From: Chloroherpetonaceae bacterium
GTDB lineage: Bacteria; Bacteroidota; Chlorobiia; Chlorobiales; Thermochlorobacteraceae
Direction of reading: 5' to 3'
DNA: 64,000 nt
Assembly (NCBI GenBank): GCA_025056565.1
Contig: JANWWA010000001.1
Span: 283,966-347,965, forward strand
Positions 10,690-23,487 of this stretch are shown piece after piece (position 1 is the stretch's first letter; every line of letters starts with the position of its first letter). The notes beneath the pieces were generated by a model that searched no databases, was not told the DNA's origin, and worked only from the letters and a program-made list of their open reading frames with translations. A program made the position numbers and the translations under genes.

Positions 10690-10826
10690 CCCCTCTCCTT
10701 ACACAGGAAAGGGGCTGGAAGTATGCTCATCCTGTCCTGACCGCGTCAGAATGTCCCTCTCCTCGCAAAGGAAAGGGACACCGCTCCTCCCCTCTCCTTA
10801 CAAAGGAGAGGGGTCGGGGGTGAGGT
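10690..10826. repeat. Cluster of GC-rich palindromic repeats (three copies)
   Basis: Three related hairpins: 10690-10714 (CCCCTCTCCTT...GGAAAGGGG), 10752-10780 (TGTCCCTCTCCT...AGGAAAGGGACA) and 10789-10813 (CCCCTCTCCTT-ACA-AAGGAGAGGGG, perfect), the last followed by CGGGGGTGAGG. A fourth relative is at 17905-17976. They lie between the broken secreted-protein gene and the kinase-like gene. They look like a dispersed REP/MITE-like family; no transposase is present. Confidence 0.8.
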
Positions 10827-15572: not shown

Positions 15573-15701
15573 CGTTTAGCCCTCCAGAAGAAAAGGAATC
15601 TAATGCTTGCATATCCACCTTCAAAGTTTTTGCTCCCTCATCTGTGAGCTTTGACTACGCTTAGGCAAGCGATTTGGAGAGAATTAACTTTTTTATTAAA
15701 G

Positions 15702-15714
15702 TAGACTAAGTCTA
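15702..15714. promoter_or_regulatory. Candidate iron-repressor operator upstream of the TonB receptor
   Basis: TAGACTAAGTCTA, a 13-bp palindrome about 70 bases before the receptor start and followed by AATAAG. The same palindrome in the other orientation lies upstream of flavodoxin (21169-21181), and both share the TAAG flank two bases further on. This suggests one regulator, most simply a Fur- or DtxR-type metal-dependent repressor. Confidence 0.6.
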
Positions 15715-15782
15715 AATAAGTGAAAACATTGTGCAGCTTGCATCGGCTTTGCGTGCAGTGCACAAAGATATCCAGAAAGGTT

Positions 15783-17891
15783 ATGCAGCATATTAGTCTA
15801 TGGGCATCTTGTAGCATTTGCGTGATACTTGCTTGCGCAGTTTCTGCAGCTGCACAAGCTCAGCCTGATTCTTTGGCAATAGACTCGCTGAACACGCACA
15901 GTGCCAAAGAAGTGGTCGTCACGGCAACGCGCTCAGAGAAAGAGTTGGAGGATGTGGCGCTGCCCGTAACGGTGATTTCAAAAAAACGCATTGAGCAACA
16001 AGGCGCGATGCGTCTGAGCGAAGTCCTTGAGGAACAAACGGGACTGGTGATTATGCATGACCATGGCACGGGCGTGCAAATGCAAGGCTTTTCACCCGCT
16101 TACACGCTCATTCTCATTGACGGCGAACCTGTCATTGGACGCACCGCTGGCACGCTGGAACTTACACGCTTTACAGTCGCCAACATCGAGCGCATTGAAA
16201 TTGTCAAAGGTCCATCGTCTTCGCTCTTTGGCAGCGAAGCGCTGGGCGGCGTCATCAACATCATCACCAAACAAGCCGAAGAGCCGTTCAAAGCAAAGCT
16301 GAACACGAGATATGGCACGTTCGACGCTGCAGACCTTAGCGCGATTCTGGAAGGCTCAACGGGCAATCTTTCTGCCTCGCTCATCATCAATCGCAATAGT
16401 TCAAGCGGTTACGACCTTACGCCCGAAACCGAAAGCCGCACTACGCCTGAATTTTACAACTACACACTCAACCCGAAACTCTGCTACAAATTCAGTGACG
16501 CTACGACGCTTGCGCTTGCAGTGCGCTGGCTTGTAGAGTCGCAGCGTGGCATTGCACAGTCAGGCATGCGTCTTGTTGATTCCAAAGAATCGCTTCTCGA
16601 TTGGAACGCTTCGGCAAACTTCACGCACAAATTTTCGCCCTTCGTGAAAACCAGTCTGCGCCTCTATGGCTCGCGCTACGACAATCGCTTCACCAATACA
16701 TTCCGCGACGACGGTAGCGTCTTTTTCTCAGGCGCATTTGATCAACGAATGCTAAAAATTGAGTCGCAAACCGATTGGGTGATAGGCGTCAGTAACATTC
16801 TCACCATTGGCGCAGGCTACATTGATGAAGGCGTCGCCGCCGATAGAATCGCAGGCGGCTCTCGCGCAATGAACACTGCCTACCTCTATGCGCAAAACGA
16901 ATTCATTCCGTTTTCTTGGCTCAATCTTACCGCCAGTTTTCGCTTCGATAGAAACAGCGATTTCGGCTCGCAACTCTCGCCGCGCATCGCCGCGCTCTAC
17001 AAGGCAACCGAATGGCTTTCCATTCGCGCCTCCGTTGGCAGCGGGTTCAAAGCGCCCACATTCCAACAACTTTACTTGGACTTCACCAATGCCGCAGCGG
17101 GTTACAGCGTCTTTGGCTCAACCAACGTGCGCGAGTCGTTTCGACGTTTGCAAGAGCAGGGTTTGATTCAGGGCATCTTGCTTGACCCCAGTCAATTAGA
17201 GCCAATTCGCGCCGAAAGCTCACTTGCCTTCAATGTGGGCGCAGATATGTCGCCCGCAAAATTCCTTTCGTTCAAGATCAACGTCTTTCGCAACAACGTG
17301 CGCGACTTAATTGACACGCAGCCTATTGCAGTGCGCACGGGCGGTGGAAACATCTTCACCTACTTCAATCTCAACCGCGTCTTTACCGAAGGCATTGAGA
17401 CAGAACTCGCCGTGAAACTGTTTCCAAGTCTCACGCTTTCGGCGGGTTATCAATTCGTCAATGCCAAAGACGAAGGCGTGCTCGAGAAAATTCGCGCAGG
17501 CAGAATCGGTCGCACCGCAGGCGATGTCTTGAATCCCGTTTTCGTTCCGATTACTGAATCACAGTATGGCGGTCTCTTTGGTCGCTCGAACCATCTCTTG
17601 AATGTGAAACTGCTCTACGAAAACGAAGAGATGGGACTCAGCGCGTTCCTTCGCGGCGTGATTCGCTCGCGCTATGGTTTCCAAGACCGCAACGGGAACT
17701 TGATTTTAGACGACGATAGCGAATACGCGCCCGGCTACGCGATTTGGGACATCACGATAAACCAAAAACTCTGGGCGGGCTTTAGCGCGCAGATAGGCGT
17801 AGACAACATCTTCAATCAAACTGACCCGTTCTACACGCCCTTCTTGCCCGGACGAATTTGGTTCGTGGGCGTGCGTTGGGAGAGTTTCTAA
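15783..17891 (+). CDS. TonB-dependent outer-membrane receptor, probably for heme (HmuR/BtuB-like)
   Basis: 702 residues from the ATG at 15783. A signal peptide ends near AAAQAQ, then a plug domain opens with EVVVTATRSEKELEDV and contains RIEIVKGPSSSLFGSEALGGVINIITK in two overlapping motifs, then a beta-barrel ends in the aromatic residue of WESF. Unlike the second receptor at 56155 it lacks a carboxypeptidase-regulatory-like front domain, as is usual for small-ligand receptors. An upstream GTG at 15720 would add 21 residues but lies next to the putative operator, so I prefer 15783. The HmuY gene downstream points to heme as the ligand. The whole frame is intact. Confidence 0.9.
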   Translation: MQHISLWASCSICVILACAVSAAAQAQPDSLAIDSLNTHSAKEVVVTATRSEKELEDVALPVTVISKKRIEQQGAMRLSEVLEEQTGLVIMHDHGTGVQMQGFSPAYTLILIDGEPVIGRTAGTLELTRFTVANIERIEIVKGPSSSLFGSEALGGVINIITKQAEEPFKAKLNTRYGTFDAADLSAILEGSTGNLSASLIINRNSSSGYDLTPETESRTTPEFYNYTLNPKLCYKFSDATTLALAVRWLVESQRGIAQSGMRLVDSKESLLDWNASANFTHKFSPFVKTSLRLYGSRYDNRFTNTFRDDGSVFFSGAFDQRMLKIESQTDWVIGVSNILTIGAGYIDEGVAADRIAGGSRAMNTAYLYAQNEFIPFSWLNLTASFRFDRNSDFGSQLSPRIAALYKATEWLSIRASVGSGFKAPTFQQLYLDFTNAAAGYSVFGSTNVRESFRRLQEQGLIQGILLDPSQLEPIRAESSLAFNVGADMSPAKFLSFKINVFRNNVRDLIDTQPIAVRTGGGNIFTYFNLNRVFTEGIETELAVKLFPSLTLSAGYQFVNAKDEGVLEKIRAGRIGRTAGDVLNPVFVPITESQYGGLFGRSNHLLNVKLLYENEEMGLSAFLRGVIRSRYGFQDRNGNLILDDDSEYAPGYAIWDITINQKLWAGFSAQIGVDNIFNQTDPFYTPFLPGRIWFVGVRWESF

Positions 17892-17904
17892 TGCAGTTGG
17901 CATG

Positions 17905-17976
17905 CCTCACCCCCGATTCCGACTCTGGTCGGAATCGTTCTCCTCTCCTTTGCAAGGAGAGGGGTTAGGGGTGAGG
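17905..17976. repeat. Palindromic repeat with two internal hairpins
   Basis: Outer arms CCTCACCCC (17905-17913) and GGGGTGAGG (17968-17976) enclose hairpin GATTCCGAC/GTCGGAATC (17915-17936) and hairpin CCTCTCCTT/AAGGAGAGG (17942-17962). The second hairpin matches the repeats at 10690-10826. It sits between two genes of the heme island and could fold as a three-way junction. Confidence 0.8.
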
Positions 17977-18037
17977 TCTAAGCAGATTGCCAAACATCTC
18001 TTGCAGCAATAGCTAACAACTCAAAACGACAATCACA

Positions 18038-18517
18038 ATGACAAATGCGATTTCAACTTGCCGCATTCAACTCTCGCTCCTGTGGCTCTTGATGGTCGTG
18101 GGCATGATGCTCCACTTCGACTATCACGTGAGCGGCATTTTCTACGGCATTGACCTCAAACGCCCAAACGCAACGGGTGAATTTCCGCCAACGATTTGGC
18201 TCGTTCGCTTCGTCTTTCAGATTGCGCCAATGATGGCAGTTACATTTCTGCTCTTCTTTGAAGTGCAGTGGTTTCGTGTGGCACACTTTGGCGTGAGCGT
18301 TCTCTACACACTTGCCCACGCTTCGCACCTCATTCGTGAGTTTGAAAAGCCCGATATGTCGCAAATGAATTTGCTCTCTCTGGTTTTGGTTGTGAGCGTG
18401 CTTTTGAATGTGGTCTCGTGGCGATGGCTCAAAGAAGGCAAAGGTCAAACGCTTAAAGCTGAAAGTCCAGAACTGAGGGAATCTAAACTTGCAAAAGAAT
18501 CAGCAACCGTGAGTTAA
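18038..18517 (+). CDS. Four-helix membrane protein in the heme locus, unknown function
   Basis: 159 residues. Four hydrophobic segments lie at about residues 10-27, 48-75, 80-98 and 110-128. They are followed by a charged tail rich in Lys and Glu. His26 in LHFDYH and a His-containing segment (LAHASHLIREF) sit near membrane edges and could bind heme or metal, but this is only a guess. I recognise no family. It is in the same direction as the receptor and HmuY and lies between them, so a role in heme passage or sensing is suggested by context. A strong hairpin follows the stop after 18 bases. Confidence 0.7.
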   Translation: MTNAISTCRIQLSLLWLLMVVGMMLHFDYHVSGIFYGIDLKRPNATGEFPPTIWLVRFVFQIAPMMAVTFLLFFEVQWFRVAHFGVSVLYTLAHASHLIREFEKPDMSQMNLLSLVLVVSVLLNVVSWRWLKEGKGQTLKAESPELRESKLAKESATVS

Positions 18518-18522
18518 GCGAC

Positions 18523-18566
18523 GCACAAAACAAAAAGCGAAGCGCGCGTGCAGGGCGCGCTCCGCT
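18523..18566 (-). terminator. Intrinsic terminator facing antisense to the hmuY gene
   Basis: On the minus strand a 12-bp stem (arms 18555-18566 and 18536-18547, 7-base loop) is followed by TTTTGTTTTGTGCG. In minus-strand RNA all pairs form, including one G-U. In plus-strand RNA the same position is an A-C mismatch and no T-run follows, so the structure favours the minus strand. It would end a transcript coming from the protease gene at 19764 across hmuY. Confidence 0.7.
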
Positions 18567-18715
18567 GAAACGCAAAAACGTGCAAAGAACCCGCATCGCG
18601 GATTGGCTAAACGCAAAGGGGCTTCTTGCAGAGGGGCTTGCTGACCCGTCTCTCGTTTTTGCGAAAGGAAATTACAAACGAAAATCTTGAAACGAATCTA
18701 AACTCAGTAGGAACT

Positions 18716-19333
18716 ATGAAGTTCAACATTTTCCGATTGATAGGGTTTGCTGCATTCTCAGCTGCGCTGGTCTCTTGTGGTGGTTCAGGCAGCGGTGGAA
18801 CCAGTCCCAGTCAGCCAGCGGAACTGCCTGTGCGCATTGTGCGCAATTTACAAGCCGATACCGCCAACACGGGCAGATTTACCTTCTTTTCGCTGCGAGA
18901 TAGCTCCATTGTGCCCAACTCCGATTCAGCCACCACTCGCTGGGATATTGCCTTTCGCGCCACGACAGTCATCATCAATGGCGGTCCCATTCGCTTTGGT
19001 CGTGGTGGTGCAATCGTTCTAACAGGCACCGATTTCAATGCGCTTGCAGAACTACCTGAAACAGGTTGGCGCGTGGACTCTTCGGCAGCAAGTCTTGCAA
19101 TTCCCGTTGGCAGCGACCGTGCGTGGTATAACTACAACCAAGCCACCAACGTGATTTCGCCGATTCCGGGTGTCGTTCTGGGGATTCGCACGGCAGACGG
19201 GCGATTCGCCAAACTGCAAATTCTGAGCTACTACCTTGGTGCGCCACAAAATCCTGACGGGTTCAGAGACCGCGCAAGGGTCTATACCTTCCGCTATGTC
19301 TTTCAGCCCGATGGTTCGCGGCGCGTGAAGTAG
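18716..19333 (+). CDS. HmuY family heme-binding lipoprotein
   Basis: 205 residues from the ATG at 18716, with AGGA just upstream. The N-terminus is a lipoprotein signal with lipobox LVSC followed by a Gly/Ser-rich linker. The body matches HmuY: TFFSLRDSSIV, then TRWDIAFRATTVIINGG and RFGRGGAIVL, the WDIAF...NGG...GGA signature. HmuY of Porphyromonas is an outer-membrane-anchored hemophore that takes heme from host or environmental proteins and hands it to the TonB receptor HmuR. The receptor at 15783 is the likely partner. The heme-ligand residues of HmuY vary between species and I cannot assign them here. Convergent with the protease gene, five bases apart. Confidence 0.85.
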   Translation: MKFNIFRLIGFAAFSAALVSCGGSGSGGTSPSQPAELPVRIVRNLQADTANTGRFTFFSLRDSSIVPNSDSATTRWDIAFRATTVIINGGPIRFGRGGAIVLTGTDFNALAELPETGWRVDSSAASLAIPVGSDRAWYNYNQATNVISPIPGVVLGIRTADGRFAKLQILSYYLGAPQNPDGFRDRARVYTFRYVFQPDGSRRVK

Positions 19334-19338
19334 AAGCA

Positions 19339-19764
19339 TCAGAGGCAGTCAATCACCCATTTTCCTTCGTTGGCAGGATTGGGAATTACTTTCTGTTCTT
19401 TGGCATCAATGAGCAAATCCATCGCTTCCAGCGCAAGGTAGCCCAGCAGGGGCGGCGTGCCATCATCGGGAAGTTCCATCACGTCGAGATTCGCGTCGCG
19501 GTCAAAAATCTTGATGTTTACGGGGCTGAAAATGCTGCGCTTCACAATCCCGTTTGCCGTGCGCACATCTTTCTCTTTTTGCTTTACCAGTCCAAGCGCT
19601 TCAATCATTCGCTTCGGCAGGCAGATGTATGCAGCACCTGTGTCAACCACAAACTCGACCTCCAGCGAGCGAACCTTCTCGATGGGCAACTTGCCTTCTT
19701 GGGCTTGGACAAGGTCAGCGCTGTTTTGGAGAAAAGCGGTTTGCTTCACTCGTCCCATTTCCAT
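19339..19764 (-). CDS. Retropepsin-like aspartic protease (clan AA)
   Basis: 141 residues from the ATG at 19764. It has one catalytic motif, VEFVVDTGAAYICLP, and the later hydrophobic-Gly motif LLGYLALEAMDLLID, as in single-domain retropepsin-like proteins that act as dimers. There is no signal peptide, so it should be cytoplasmic. An in-frame ATG at 19809 would leave only nine bases to the divergent DUF6607 gene; the start at MEMGRVKQT matches the family better. It is the only minus-strand gene inside the heme island, tail to tail with hmuY. The substrate is unknown. Confidence 0.82.
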   Translation of the reverse strand: MEMGRVKQTAFLQNSADLVQAQEGKLPIEKVRSLEVEFVVDTGAAYICLPKRMIEALGLVKQKEKDVRTANGIVKRSIFSPVNIKIFDRDANLDVMELPDDGTPPLLGYLALEAMDLLIDAKEQKVIPNPANEGKWVIDCL

Positions 19765-19818
19765 TGTCGTCTCTTTGAATTTTGGTTCTAACTCGTCAAC
19801 TTCAAACATCGTTACGCT

Positions 19819-20826
19819 ATGAAACGCTTAACCGTCTTTTCAATGCTACTCATTTTTGCTGGTTCACTTTTTGCGCAAGCAAAGAAACCTGCGTCAAAAT
19901 CTGACTTAGCGAAAGCTAAAGATGCTGCCGCAATGAGCAAAAAAGAACAAGACAAACAAGCCATCAAAGCGATGGCGGGCACATACTTTGTAGATTTTCG
20001 CTATGCAGAAACCTTCGCTGAAGACCCCGACTACAAGCTCAAAGAGCCGTATCGCGCCAGCGGCTTAGAATGCATCGTGATTGATGAAGAGACAGATAAC
20101 AAAATCTCGCTCCTTCATCTCTTAATTGTAGAAGATTCCAAAGGCGAAAAATCCATCATTAAGCACTGGCGCGAAGATTGGATTTATGAATGCACAGATC
20201 TCTACTCTTTTGACCACAATCTTACTTGGCGATATCGGAAACTCTCACCTGAAGAAGCAAAAGGCAGGTGGGTGCAGAAGGTTTACTCGGTCGATGACAG
20301 TCCGCGCTATGAAGGCATTGGCACATGGGTTCATGTCGACGGGAAGCATTACTGGGAATCGGAAGCTGATGCGCCGCTCCCGCGCCGCGAATACACGAAG
20401 CGCAGCGATTACAATGTGCTTCGCCGTCGCAACCGGCATATTCTCACAGACTACGGTTTTCTGCACGAACAAGATAACCTCAAAATCGTTCGCACAGCGG
20501 GTGCACCTGACACCGTGCTGGTAGCAGAGAAAGGGCTGAATATGTATAAGCGCGTTGAGGATGCCACGATGGGCAACCCTGCAAAAGAATGGTGGGACAA
20601 ACACCGACCGTTCTGGCGTGAAGTATTGGCTGTCTGGAACGATATCTATGCACAGCAGCGCGACATTGCTTTCAAGGAAAAAGATGGCGATGGCAAACTG
20701 GCTGCAGCTTTGTTCAAACTGGATGAAGAAAGTTTCAAGCAGGGCAGAAAACCAAGTGATGTTCGTGCTGAAATTCGCTCTCTCATTGAGCAGCATTTTC
20801 ATGCAGTGCAGGTTGGCGCAAGGTAA
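19819..20826 (+). CDS. DUF6607 family secreted protein
   Basis: 335 residues with a signal peptide (MKRLTVFSMLLIFAGSLFAQ), so exported to the periplasm or beyond. The rest matches the DUF6607 pattern as I remember it: YAETFAEDPDYKLKEPY, IIKHWREDWIYE, VYSVDDSPRYEGIGTWVH, PLPRREYTKRSDYNVL and FLHEQDNLKIVR. The family has no known activity. It is rich in conserved Trp, Tyr, His and acidic residues, which would suit a ligand-binding or hydrolytic pocket. Its place directly after hmuY, apart from the antisense protease, suggests a task in heme or iron handling; this is inference from context. Complete and intact. Confidence 0.85.
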   Translation: MKRLTVFSMLLIFAGSLFAQAKKPASKSDLAKAKDAAAMSKKEQDKQAIKAMAGTYFVDFRYAETFAEDPDYKLKEPYRASGLECIVIDEETDNKISLLHLLIVEDSKGEKSIIKHWREDWIYECTDLYSFDHNLTWRYRKLSPEEAKGRWVQKVYSVDDSPRYEGIGTWVHVDGKHYWESEADAPLPRREYTKRSDYNVLRRRNRHILTDYGFLHEQDNLKIVRTAGAPDTVLVAEKGLNMYKRVEDATMGNPAKEWWDKHRPFWREVLAVWNDIYAQQRDIAFKEKDGDGKLAAALFKLDEESFKQGRKPSDVRAEIRSLIEQHFHAVQVGAR

Positions 20827-20827
20827 T

Positions 20828-21112
20828 ATGCAAGCTGTTGAGGACGTCTTGAAAGTGATTGAGCAGTTGCGGCTATTTCTTATGCTCGTAGCGTTTGCAC
20901 TTAGCGTAGTGGGTGGCAGCGGCGTTTTGCTCTATCTTGCGTTGCTCCGAAGTGTGCTGACAAAAAACCAGTGCTGCCGCTCCTCCTACGCTGCAAACCA
21001 AGTGCCGCCAAATGATCTTGCATGGCGTAGTAAATCGTCTGGGTCAAACATTTCGGAATGCCACCTATATCAGTGTAGCCAGCACTTTTTCTATGGTTTT
21101 TCATTGAATTAG
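20828..21112 (+). CDS. Possible small membrane protein, C-terminal part doubtful
   Basis: An ATG one base after the DUF6607 stop opens a 94-residue frame. Residues 1-46 look real: an amphipathic start (MQAVEDVLKVIEQLRLF), one membrane helix (about 17-40) and basic residues. After LTKNQCC the sequence is rich in Ser, Cys and Gln and looks random, as if a frameshift had occurred. It could be a truncated single-helix protein translated together with DUF6607. No family is recognised. Confidence 0.35.
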   Translation: MQAVEDVLKVIEQLRLFLMLVAFALSVVGGSGVLLYLALLRSVLTKNQCCRSSYAANQVPPNDLAWRSKSSGSNISECHLYQCSQHFFYGFSLN

Positions 21113-21168
21113 CACGCCCCTTTTAAGGCACTAAGTCACTCTTGGAAAATTCAATTTTTACTCTTAAA

Positions 21169-21181
21169 TAGACTTAGTCTA
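21169..21181. promoter_or_regulatory. Candidate iron-repressor operator upstream of flavodoxin
   Basis: TAGACTTAGTCTA, the reverse complement of the palindrome at 15702-15714, centred 28 bases before the flavodoxin ATG. Read on the minus strand it is TAGACTAAGTCTA followed by TTTAAG, against AATAAG at the other site. Flavodoxin is a classic iron-repressed gene, which supports an iron-dependent repressor. Confidence 0.62.
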
Positions 21182-21202
21182 ATTAAAAAAATTTATCACA
21201 CT

Positions 21203-21727
21203 ATGGGTTACATCGGGCTTTTCTACGGGACGCAGACGGGCAACACGGAGCTTGTTGCTCAGAAAATCCAGCAAGAGTTGGGTGCAGACCTTGTCGATCT
21301 CTACAATGTCAAGCATGCGACGGCGGACGATATGGCGCAATACAGTATCCTCATTCTTGCTGCGCCGACTTGGTATGATGGAGAGATGCAGGCTGACTGG
21401 GAAGATTTTATGCCACAGCTCGAGTCGCTTGATTTTACGGACAAGTATGTCGGCTTCGTTGCGCTGGGCGACCAAGTTGGCTACTCGCAATACTTCGTGG
21501 ATTCTATCGGCGTGATTGCTGACGCCGTCGTCTCGCGTGGCGCACAGGTCTTTGGGCTTTGGCCCCGTGATGGCTACCAGTTCGAGTCTTCAAAAGGACT
21601 CTATGACGACAAACACTTTTGGGGACTTGTTCTTGACTTCGAGAACCAAAGTAACCTCACCGACAAACGCATCAAGCAATGGTGCATGCAAATCCGTGAA
21701 GAACTTGGCATTGAAGCAAAACCGTAG
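21203..21727 (+). CDS. fldA: Long-chain flavodoxin
   Basis: 174 residues. FMN-binding electron carrier that replaces ferredoxin when iron is short. The phosphate loop is GTQTGNTELVAQK at residues 9-21. APTWYDGEMQADWEDF gives the first aromatic FMN contact, and FVALGDQVGYSQYF with the following Tyr region gives the second. The insertion near the C-terminus makes it the long-chain type. The partner is plausibly the FNR at 51968. A candidate repressor box is just upstream, and a second gene follows 18 bases downstream with a good ribosome binding site. Confidence 0.95.
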   Translation: MGYIGLFYGTQTGNTELVAQKIQQELGADLVDLYNVKHATADDMAQYSILILAAPTWYDGEMQADWEDFMPQLESLDFTDKYVGFVALGDQVGYSQYFVDSIGVIADAVVSRGAQVFGLWPRDGYQFESSKGLYDDKHFWGLVLDFENQSNLTDKRIKQWCMQIREELGIEAKP

Positions 21728-21745
21728 AGAAAGGAGCGTCTAAAT

Positions 21746-22093
21746 ATGCATCAACACGCAGTGTGCCTATTTGAGACGGAGCATGGCGCTATTTTTTTCT
21801 GCAAAGATTGCGGCACGATTCACTTGGAGTTTGGCAATGTCATCTTGGAATTTACGATGCAGGGCTTTGAGACATTCTGCGACAGTCTAAACACAGTAGA
21901 TTTTGCCAAGTGCGAGCAGATGAATCACAGCTATCTCTACCGCCGCAAGCTCATCTTGTCGTTTGAGCGTGCCTCTATTAAGGCCGCTTTCTATCTCCAC
22001 GAAATTCATCAGCTTCAAGAACTGGCGCGCGGGGCTGCTTTTATGCTCGCACAGCGTCAGCTCTGCGAGGCTGCACAGGCACGGCTGAATTAG
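21746..22093 (+). CDS. Small cysteine-containing hypothetical protein downstream of flavodoxin
   Basis: 115 residues. The N-terminal third has a CKDC pair in IFFCKDCGTIHLEFGN, followed by a helical part (ELARGAAFMLAQRQ). It resembles short uncharacterised Bacteroidota proteins that I believe are filed as DUF6686, but I cannot verify that. AGGAG lies nine bases before the ATG. It is 18 bases behind fldA and probably in the same transcript, so it may also be iron-repressed. The two cysteines alone are too few for a normal iron-sulfur or zinc site unless the protein dimerises. Confidence 0.7.
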   Translation: MHQHAVCLFETEHGAIFFCKDCGTIHLEFGNVILEFTMQGFETFCDSLNTVDFAKCEQMNHSYLYRRKLILSFERASIKAAFYLHEIHQLQELARGAAFMLAQRQLCEAAQARLN

Positions 22094-22104
22094 TCTCTCC
22101 GGTT

Positions 22105-22214
22105 TGTTCTTTCTGTTCTTTTGTCCTCCGTTCTGTTGCTGTTGTTATAGACGCTGTTCTTTTTAGTGTGATGTCTGTTCTTTCACTTGTTGAAGTTGCT
22201 ATGCTGTGTTCTTT
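22105..22214. repeat. Five direct copies of TGTTCTTT upstream of the PepSY gene
   Basis: TGTTCTTT starts at 22105, 22114, 22155, 22176 and 22207. The last four are 41, 21 and 31 bases apart, close to 4, 2 and 3 helical turns, so they would face the same side of the DNA. The interval is T-rich, which raises the chance of coincidence. It may be an array for a transcription factor. Confidence 0.5.
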
Positions 22215-22232
22215 CTGAGCATACTACGACGA

Positions 22233-22276
22233 GGGCGCTCTGATGCACTCTCTGCATTAGAGCCCCTGTCTTTTTT
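22233..22276 (+). terminator. Intrinsic terminator or attenuator before the PepSY gene
   Basis: Stem of GGG, CTCT, G-U and ATGCA paired with TGCAT, AGAG and CCC (22233-22265, CTCTC loop, two-base bulge), then a T-run at 22271-22276. It ends the flavodoxin transcript. It lies 30 bases before the PepSY start, so it could also act as a leader attenuator. Confidence 0.7.
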
Positions 22277-22305
22277 CCGTGCAACACCAATCATCTCCGT
22301 AAACT

Positions 22306-23487
22306 ATGAAGAAAAATTTGATGAAGGGGCTTACTGCCAAAGTTTTTTCGCTCCACTCTTGGCTTGGGGTTTTCGCAGGCACCTTTATGATTGTAATCGG
22401 CCTGACAGGCTCACTCATTGTTTTCTCTGATGAACTTAACGAATTGATTTATCGTGAGCAAGCCTTTATTGTGCCAGAAGGTGAGCCAAAATCATTTGAT
22501 GCTTTGCTATCTGCACTATACCAGCAATATCCTGACGCAAAAGTCTTGCGTCTTACAAAAAGTGACTCGCCCAAGAAAGCCTACACCGCCGTGATGCAAC
22601 TTGGCAAAGAACGGCTTTACACATACCTCAACCCATACACGGGTAAAGTTACTGGACAAATTGAAGTGCACTCACGTCTCACCAATTGGCTTTTGCGGTT
22701 GCACTTTACGCTACTTATGCGTCCTTTCGGCGATGGCATTGTGGCGCTCGTTGGTTTTTGCTTCATTGGACTTTCGCTCACAGGACTTTGGATTCAGCGC
22801 AAGTCGCTTTTCAGTGTCTACACGAAACCTATTCGCTGGAAAGCAGGCACAAAAGTCGCTTCGCATGATTTTCATTTACTCATTGGCTCAGCCTCCGTTT
22901 TGTTCTGCCTTGTGATGTCTATTACTGGGTTCTATATGATGCTTTACATCTTTGACCCTGAGTGGTGGCAAAGACAATTTGTAGCACGCTCATCAGAGCA
23001 AAAGTCTCAGCCTATTGTGCTTTCGCTCTCCACTGATTCGCTGATGAATGTTGCCAGAGGACTCATCTCAGACTTTGAACCTAAAAGTCTCATTTTGCCA
23101 CAGAATGAAAAAGCCCCCATTCGTGTCTTGGGATATGCTACCTCCTCAAACCCTTTCTACAATGAACTCAGCAGCTATGTGAATTTTAAGCAAGATGGCA
23201 CAGTGCTAAAGGTGCAGGACATCCGCACTGCCAGTTTTAGTGAGAAAGCTGATATGATGCTGCGTTCTATTCACTTTGGGCAGTTTGGTGGCATATTCGT
23301 AAAAATCATCTACTCGCTTGGCGGTTTTACACCTGCGATTCTCTCTGTTACAGGCCTTGTGCTTTGGTGGAAACGCCGAAGGAAGAACATATCTGTAATG
23401 CAACCGCAGCCATCGCCGAAGCCTACAGCTCTTCCGCTTAAACTTGCACCAGTAAAGCCAGCTGCGGCAACTCGTAAGCCTAGCTAA
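22306..23487 (+). CDS. PepSY-associated membrane protein (PiuB-like)
   Basis: 393 residues with four membrane helices: about residues 15-40 (HSWLGVFAGTFMIVIGLTGS), 140-165, 190-215 and 340-365. A PepSY-like periplasmic region lies between the first two. The family is often annotated as iron-regulated membrane protein or PepSY-TM and occurs beside siderophore and heme receptors. Some members are thought to reduce ferric siderophores at the inner membrane. His residues next to the helices (HSWLG, RLHFTLL, SHDFHLLIG, SIHFGQFGG) are suited to bind two hemes. The gene sits at the right end of the iron/heme island. The C-terminal tail is rich in Pro, Lys and Ala. Confidence 0.88.
   Translation: MKKNLMKGLTAKVFSLHSWLGVFAGTFMIVIGLTGSLIVFSDELNELIYREQAFIVPEGEPKSFDALLSALYQQYPDAKVLRLTKSDSPKKAYTAVMQLGKERLYTYLNPYTGKVTGQIEVHSRLTNWLLRLHFTLLMRPFGDGIVALVGFCFIGLSLTGLWIQRKSLFSVYTKPIRWKAGTKVASHDFHLLIGSASVLFCLVMSITGFYMMLYIFDPEWWQRQFVARSSEQKSQPIVLSLSTDSLMNVARGLISDFEPKSLILPQNEKAPIRVLGYATSSNPFYNELSSYVNFKQDGTVLKVQDIRTASFSEKADMMLRSIHFGQFGGIFVKIIYSLGGFTPAILSVTGLVLWWKRRRKNISVMQPQPSPKPTALPLKLAPVKPAAATRKPS

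Follow-up and report, generated by a model that had tools for sequence, protein, structure and literature searches.

What brings a TonB-dependent receptor, an HmuY-family lipoprotein, a protein of the Pfam family DUF6607, a long flavodoxin and a PepSY_TM protein together in a hot-spring phototroph? These genes, along with one for a protein of four predicted transmembrane helices (4-TM), all lie on the + strand between positions 15783 and 23487 of a 64,000-nucleotide stretch (the window) of Chloroherpetonaceae bacterium contig JANWWA010000001.1 (assembly GCA_025056565.1). The nearest named loci belong to the Candidatus Thermochlorobacter genus and family, at 74–76% protein identity. An initial annotation, made from the letters of the window, had listed the six genes with their coordinates and common direction, and Pfam and NCBIfam profiles bore this list out. 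It had passed over a minus-strand aspartic-protease-like gene, a gene for DUF6686 and two palindromes that resemble Fur boxes. We conclude that the island is probably a Fur-controlled haem or iron acquisition locus of the RhuR-RhuA-RhuH kind, which would operate by the mechanism proposed below.

DUF6607 and the haemophore RhuH

A profile built from 41 homologues of the DUF6607 protein (19819–20826, +; PF20311, Pfam 6.5e-108) matched PDB entry 8XJC at 1.6e-114, and the window protein alone matched the same entry over residues 40–307 (phmmer, 8.5e-79). Its AlphaFold2 model, with a predicted local distance difference test (pLDDT) score of 91.7, was aligned to 8XJC by Foldseek at 8.4e-33, with a TM-score of 0.91 over the target. 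Entry 8XJC is RhuH, the haemophore of the duck pathogen Riemerella anatipestifer, which was solved and tested in 2025 (PMC11967795). RhuH binds haem with a dissociation constant of 3.44e-11 M, is secreted in outer-membrane vesicles and extracts haem from haemoglobin; its affinity for metal-free porphyrin is lower by a factor of about a million (PMC11967795). Its iron ligand, His96, was tested by mutation, and in the haem model Arg143, Tyr144, Arg170, Arg183 and Gln198 contact the propionates (PMC11967795).

All of these residues have counterparts in the window. His96 aligns with His116, and the propionate contacts correspond to Arg163, Tyr164, Arg190, Arg203 and Gln218; each of the six is invariant in 81 of 81 DUF6607 sequences. 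Judged by sequence, DUF6607 is the RhuH haemophore family, and capture of haem by the window protein is well supported by the conserved contacts. The initial annotation had seen in DUF6607 a part of a haem or iron path with no assigned role. The haem part stands, whereas the absence of a role does not, because membership of the RhuH family means that the function of the family was already published in 2025. The names DUF6607 and DUF6686 were not met in any paper of the literature searched. A lipocalin or a CpcT-like lyase, our first guess, was given up after the match to 8XJC.

The likeness to R. anatipestifer rhuH and rhuR-rhuA covers the family, the fold, all haem-contact residues, a neighbouring TonB receptor and a Fur-box-like promoter. 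The loci differ in layout and in content. The window has receptor, 4-TM, HmuY and DUF6607 in that order on one strand, whereas the Riemerella genes are divergent; it adds the 4-TM protein, flavodoxin, DUF6686 and PepSY, and it comes from the Thermochlorobacter lineage.

HmuY, the receptor and their linkage to DUF6607

The initial annotation had left the identity of HmuY to be checked by profile search. The lipoprotein (18716–19333, +, in an open reading frame that extends from 18626) matched PF14064 at 7.4e-10, with 39.6 bits against a 27-bit cut-off, and gave a profile match to 3h8t at 5e-9. Its lipobox cysteine, Cys21, is invariant among the HmuY sequences compared. The TonB-dependent receptor (15783–17891, +; Pfam Plug 1.4e-21, barrel 6.3e-37) occupies the position of HmuR or RhuR; its frame is open from a GTG at 15720, and a start at the ATG at 15783 yields a signal peptide. 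The likeness to HmuR-HmuY of Porphyromonas gingivalis, drawn in the initial annotation, thus holds for the pairing of a TonB receptor with a PF14064 lipoprotein. It fails for haem ligation, since the window HmuY has none of the His or Met ligands; the segment that joins the two aligned HmuY halves is also shorter than in the P. gingivalis protein. For the other island genes, we know of no equivalents in the hmu locus of P. gingivalis.

The proximity of HmuY to DUF6607, which the initial annotation had put forward for counting, recurs widely. Of the 48 genomes with DUF6607, 33 (17 of 20 genera) have HmuY at most 3.3 kb away from it, against a chance of about 0.3% per genome by our own rough estimate. 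The island arrangement is therefore far from chance, and for DUF6607 the outcome is the opposite of the one that the initial annotation had named as refuting. With one family (f5) excluded, the count is 29 of 30 genomes. In a sample of 148 genomes, HmuY was present in 8 of 9 with DUF6607 and in 32 of 139 without it (Fisher p=1.2e-4). We also fetched 80 DUF6607 loci; in such comparisons the pairs L104/L003 and L105/L002 are not independent. HmuY was found within 4.5 kb in 43 of the 80 (32 of 39 genus labels) and never beyond 6 kb, and the TonB receptors cluster within 2 kb of DUF6607. Besides the Thermochlorobacter relatives, these loci occur in Cytophagales, Sphingobacteriales and Saprospirales. 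The main exception is Mucilaginibacter (loci such as L020 and L026), where 2 of 24 loci have HmuY close to DUF6607, and a further 15 loci outside this genus have DUF6607 with no HmuY nearby.

In family f14, DUF6607 is divergent from receptor-HmuY in 20 of 20 genomes. This layout matches that of rhuH and rhuR-rhuA, which suggests that RhuA corresponds to the HmuY family; RhuA is reported to be unable to take haem from haemoglobin (PMC11967795). The loci with DUF6607 but no HmuY could instead point to a periplasmic haem chaperone or store that acts behind the receptor, and the N-terminus of the window DUF6607, a signal-peptide-like stretch with no lipobox, would suit such a location. We consider this rather less probable than an exported haemophore, given that RhuH leaves the cell in vesicles and removes haem from haemoglobin (PMC11967795).

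The 4-TM protein, PepSY_TM and other neighbours

The 4-TM protein (18038–18517, +) belongs to no Pfam family. Its model (pLDDT 77) has four helices of transmembrane length, at residues 7–31, 52–71, 77–101 and 107–141, and His26, His30, His94 and His97 are invariant among close relatives. In a genome search, this domain also turned up as the C-terminal part of PepSY_TM proteins some 680–730 residues long (L097:12369-14417, L102:6065-8131, L109:7598-9661 and L108:7347-9527), in which Pfam covers the N-terminal part only. The window protein is the stand-alone form of a domain that is fused to PepSY in other Bacteroidota. One such fusion, in genome G321, lies about 5 kb from the DUF6607 end of a DUF6607-DoxX-HmuY-receptor run. 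His26 and His97 are common to the stand-alone and fused forms in an alignment from which one out-of-frame row (L098) was ignored, and these two residues may form a bis-His haem or metal site. Two small proteins, one of 113 and one of 100/101 residues, come before the fusion in L102 and in L109; the L102 pair has no Pfam family. Elsewhere in the genome of the window (G000:C2), a divergent 4-TM paralogue (L098:8546-8929) is followed by a small lipoprotein-like open reading frame.

The PepSY_TM protein of the window (22306–23487, +; Pfam 4.6e-54) belongs to the inner membrane and is a relative of FoxB, the ferrisiderophore reductase that it matches (7abw; phmmer 2e-9) with its histidines aligned. 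FoxB has been described with two haems, each held by two conserved His (PMC13038864). The two share the PepSY_TM region, the aligned histidines and a gene near a TonB receptor; they are only distantly similar in sequence, and the likeness is one of sequence, from which reductase activity is a prediction. PepSY_TM occurs near DUF6607 in 11 of the 80 loci. A relative of the 4-TM protein is found in 8 of the 80, spread over four lineages and always close by. The initial annotation had assigned the 4-TM protein to a haem or iron path; this assignment survives in part, and the tie to iron comes more from the homology to the PepSY_TM C-terminus than from the count of loci.

DUF6686 (21746–22093, +; PF20391, Pfam 3.9e-15) is no more than 4.5 kb away from DUF6607 in 25 of the 80 loci (13 genus labels), and genomes from families f14 and f5 carry it immediately after DUF6607. 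Elsewhere it adjoins HmuY, PepSY_TM, TonB receptors and a ferritin-like gene (L119-L122 among others). It is a recurrent partner and is probably regulated by Fur. Within Mucilaginibacter, DUF6686 is nearby in 8 of the 24 DUF6607 loci. The long-chain flavodoxin (21203–21727, +; Pfam; NCBIfam flav_long, 216 bits) has a counterpart in genome G079 that begins about 14 bp after DUF6607 on the same strand.

The 4-TM protein, flavodoxin, DUF6686 and PepSY might be bystanders that share iron control and take no part in a haem path. The flavodoxin adjoins DUF6607 only in the window's family, and 4-TM relatives are confined to few genomes (any match in 10 of 395), as this explanation would predict. Gene arrangement elsewhere argues the other way. 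In Siphonobacter the order is DUF6686, 4-TM, DUF6607, with frames that overlap or abut, and the 4-TM frame on a contig from Saprospirales overlaps with DUF6607 as well as with the receptor. DUF6686 stands beside DUF6607 in several families, and other genomes have the 4-TM domain joined to PepSY in one protein. We hold the bystander explanation to be a minority possibility.

Other features of the region were also recorded. A clan AA aspartic-protease-like protein (19339–19809, −; Pfam) lies between HmuY and DUF6607; its gene has the same position in a genome of the same genus (G387) and is not at that place in G079, and the protein is probably outside the haem system. A GC-rich hairpin repeat (17905–17980, no strand assigned) separates the receptor from the 4-TM gene, and its core has two copies in the window, the second at 10789-10810 (−). 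In 12 loci (8 genus labels; e.g., L060:6401-6847), DoxX-family proteins are encoded no more than 4.5 kb from DUF6607, and in some genomes FMN_bind proteins lie directly beside it (L060:10860-11417, L101:8117-8644). Rfam and tRNA searches gave no matches, and a defence-system library gave none for the four island proteins searched.

Probable iron control and the proposed haem path

Two 13-base palindromes, TAGACT-N-AGTCTA, begin at 15702 and 21169. They are the sole exact copies in the genome, and both are in the island: one (GTAGACTAAGTCTAA, 15701–15715, no strand assigned) is 5′ of the receptor and the other (ATAGACTTAGTCTAA, 21168–21182, likewise) is 5′ of the flavodoxin. The pattern TAGACTNAGTCTA, with at most one mismatch, occurs twice in the window against 0.04 expected. 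Enrichment across the genome was not shown (a backward control pattern had 5 sites against 3), so the case for the palindromes rests on their position and conservation. G387 retains the exact 13-mer ahead of its receptor gene, and in four genomes from the family of the window a second DUF6686 gene has exact boxes upstream of it. With at most two mismatches, the motif TTAGANTNANTCTAA was present in all 26 of the divergent receptor/DUF6607 promoters taken from other Bacteroidota, against 1.4 in shuffled sequences; its consensus was written after frequent words had been seen in the same promoters, which makes this test partly circular. The window palindromes, which had been found before the consensus was written, fit it with one mismatch. 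The genome has two FUR profile matches, and a Fur box has been published in the promoter common to rhuH and rhuR-rhuA (PMC11967795). A DtxR-type operator was rejected, as PF02742 (Fe_dep_repr_C) had no match in the genome against the two for FUR. With predicted sites upstream and Fur encoded in the genome, the island may well be part of a Fur regulon.

We propose the following path. Under iron limitation, Fur would be released from the two palindromes, upstream of the receptor gene and of the flavodoxin gene. DUF6607 would act as a secreted or surface-held haemophore, with haem in its barrel bound via His116, as the residue-level homology to RhuH suggests. The HmuY lipoprotein and the TonB receptor would then take over the haem and import it across the outer membrane, a direction of flow that is consistent with the conserved linkage and with the Riemerella and Porphyromonas systems. 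The 4-TM protein would most likely be an inner-membrane redox or docking subunit that works with PepSY_TM, His26 and His97 being its probable haem-b or metal ligands, and it may supply the electrons by which iron is freed or reduced at that membrane. The flavodoxin could serve as an iron-sparing electron carrier under the same control. A more specific version can be written. In it, the 4-TM protein would transfer electrons through haem b as one subunit of a reductase, together with PepSY_TM and flavodoxin; DUF6607 would deliver haem, and this reductase would release the iron. HmuY, lacking ligands, would serve only to dock the haemophore, and DUF6686 would be a small partner dedicated to the path. 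We regard that version, taken as a whole, as doubtful.

Several observations weigh against a haem acquisition locus working in this way. We know of no obvious source of haemoglobin for a hot-spring phototroph. The mature window HmuY contains 0 His and 0 Met, and a comparison of 18 short HmuY proteins encoded at DUF6607 loci showed no conserved His or Met. Studied HmuY proteins ligate haem iron via two His or two Met (PMC11967795), and the window protein therefore departs from canonical HmuY ligation and from haemophores of the HmuY type. The receptor scored best against BtuB-like, haemin and haemoglobin receptor models of NCBIfam, all under cut-off (TonB-hemin, 149.9 bits against 316.85), and reached the cut-off of no curated haem receptor; among 52 receptors of DUF6607 loci, no His is conserved in half or more. 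Haem-bound RhuH is itself a model, backed by the H96A mutant (PMC11967795). A PDB fold search with the 4-TM model returned nothing significant, and the family-restricted position of the flavodoxin counts on the same side.

Some of these points would be expected if the locus imported another iron or tetrapyrrole ligand, such as a ferric siderophore, a corrinoid or chlorin from dead phototrophs, with DUF6607 and HmuY kept for that ligand. An HmuY devoid of His and Met, a receptor closest to BtuB-type models and a PepSY protein related to a ferrisiderophore reductase would all fit, as would a habitat that is, to our knowledge, poor in animal haemoproteins. Yet all residues by which RhuH contacts haem, among them the iron ligand, are invariant across DUF6607, and RhuH discriminates strongly against porphyrin that lacks the metal (PMC11967795). 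We consider import of a different ligand unlikely and retain haem as the probable cargo of the DUF6607 island.

The analysis links DUF6607, a Pfam family that had no name, to the haemophore RhuH. Homologues of RhuH had been reported mainly from Weeksellaceae and Flavobacteriaceae (PMC11967795); loci of the RhuH type now appear in many Bacteroidota and in the Thermochlorobacter lineage, and so outside Flavobacteriales. Also new are an HmuY protein with no His or Met, which raises the question of how such a protein serves a haem path, the link between the 4-TM protein and PepSY, and the recurrence of DUF6686 as a partner. The 4-TM PepSY-type domain and DUF6686 are thereby two further candidate parts of these systems.

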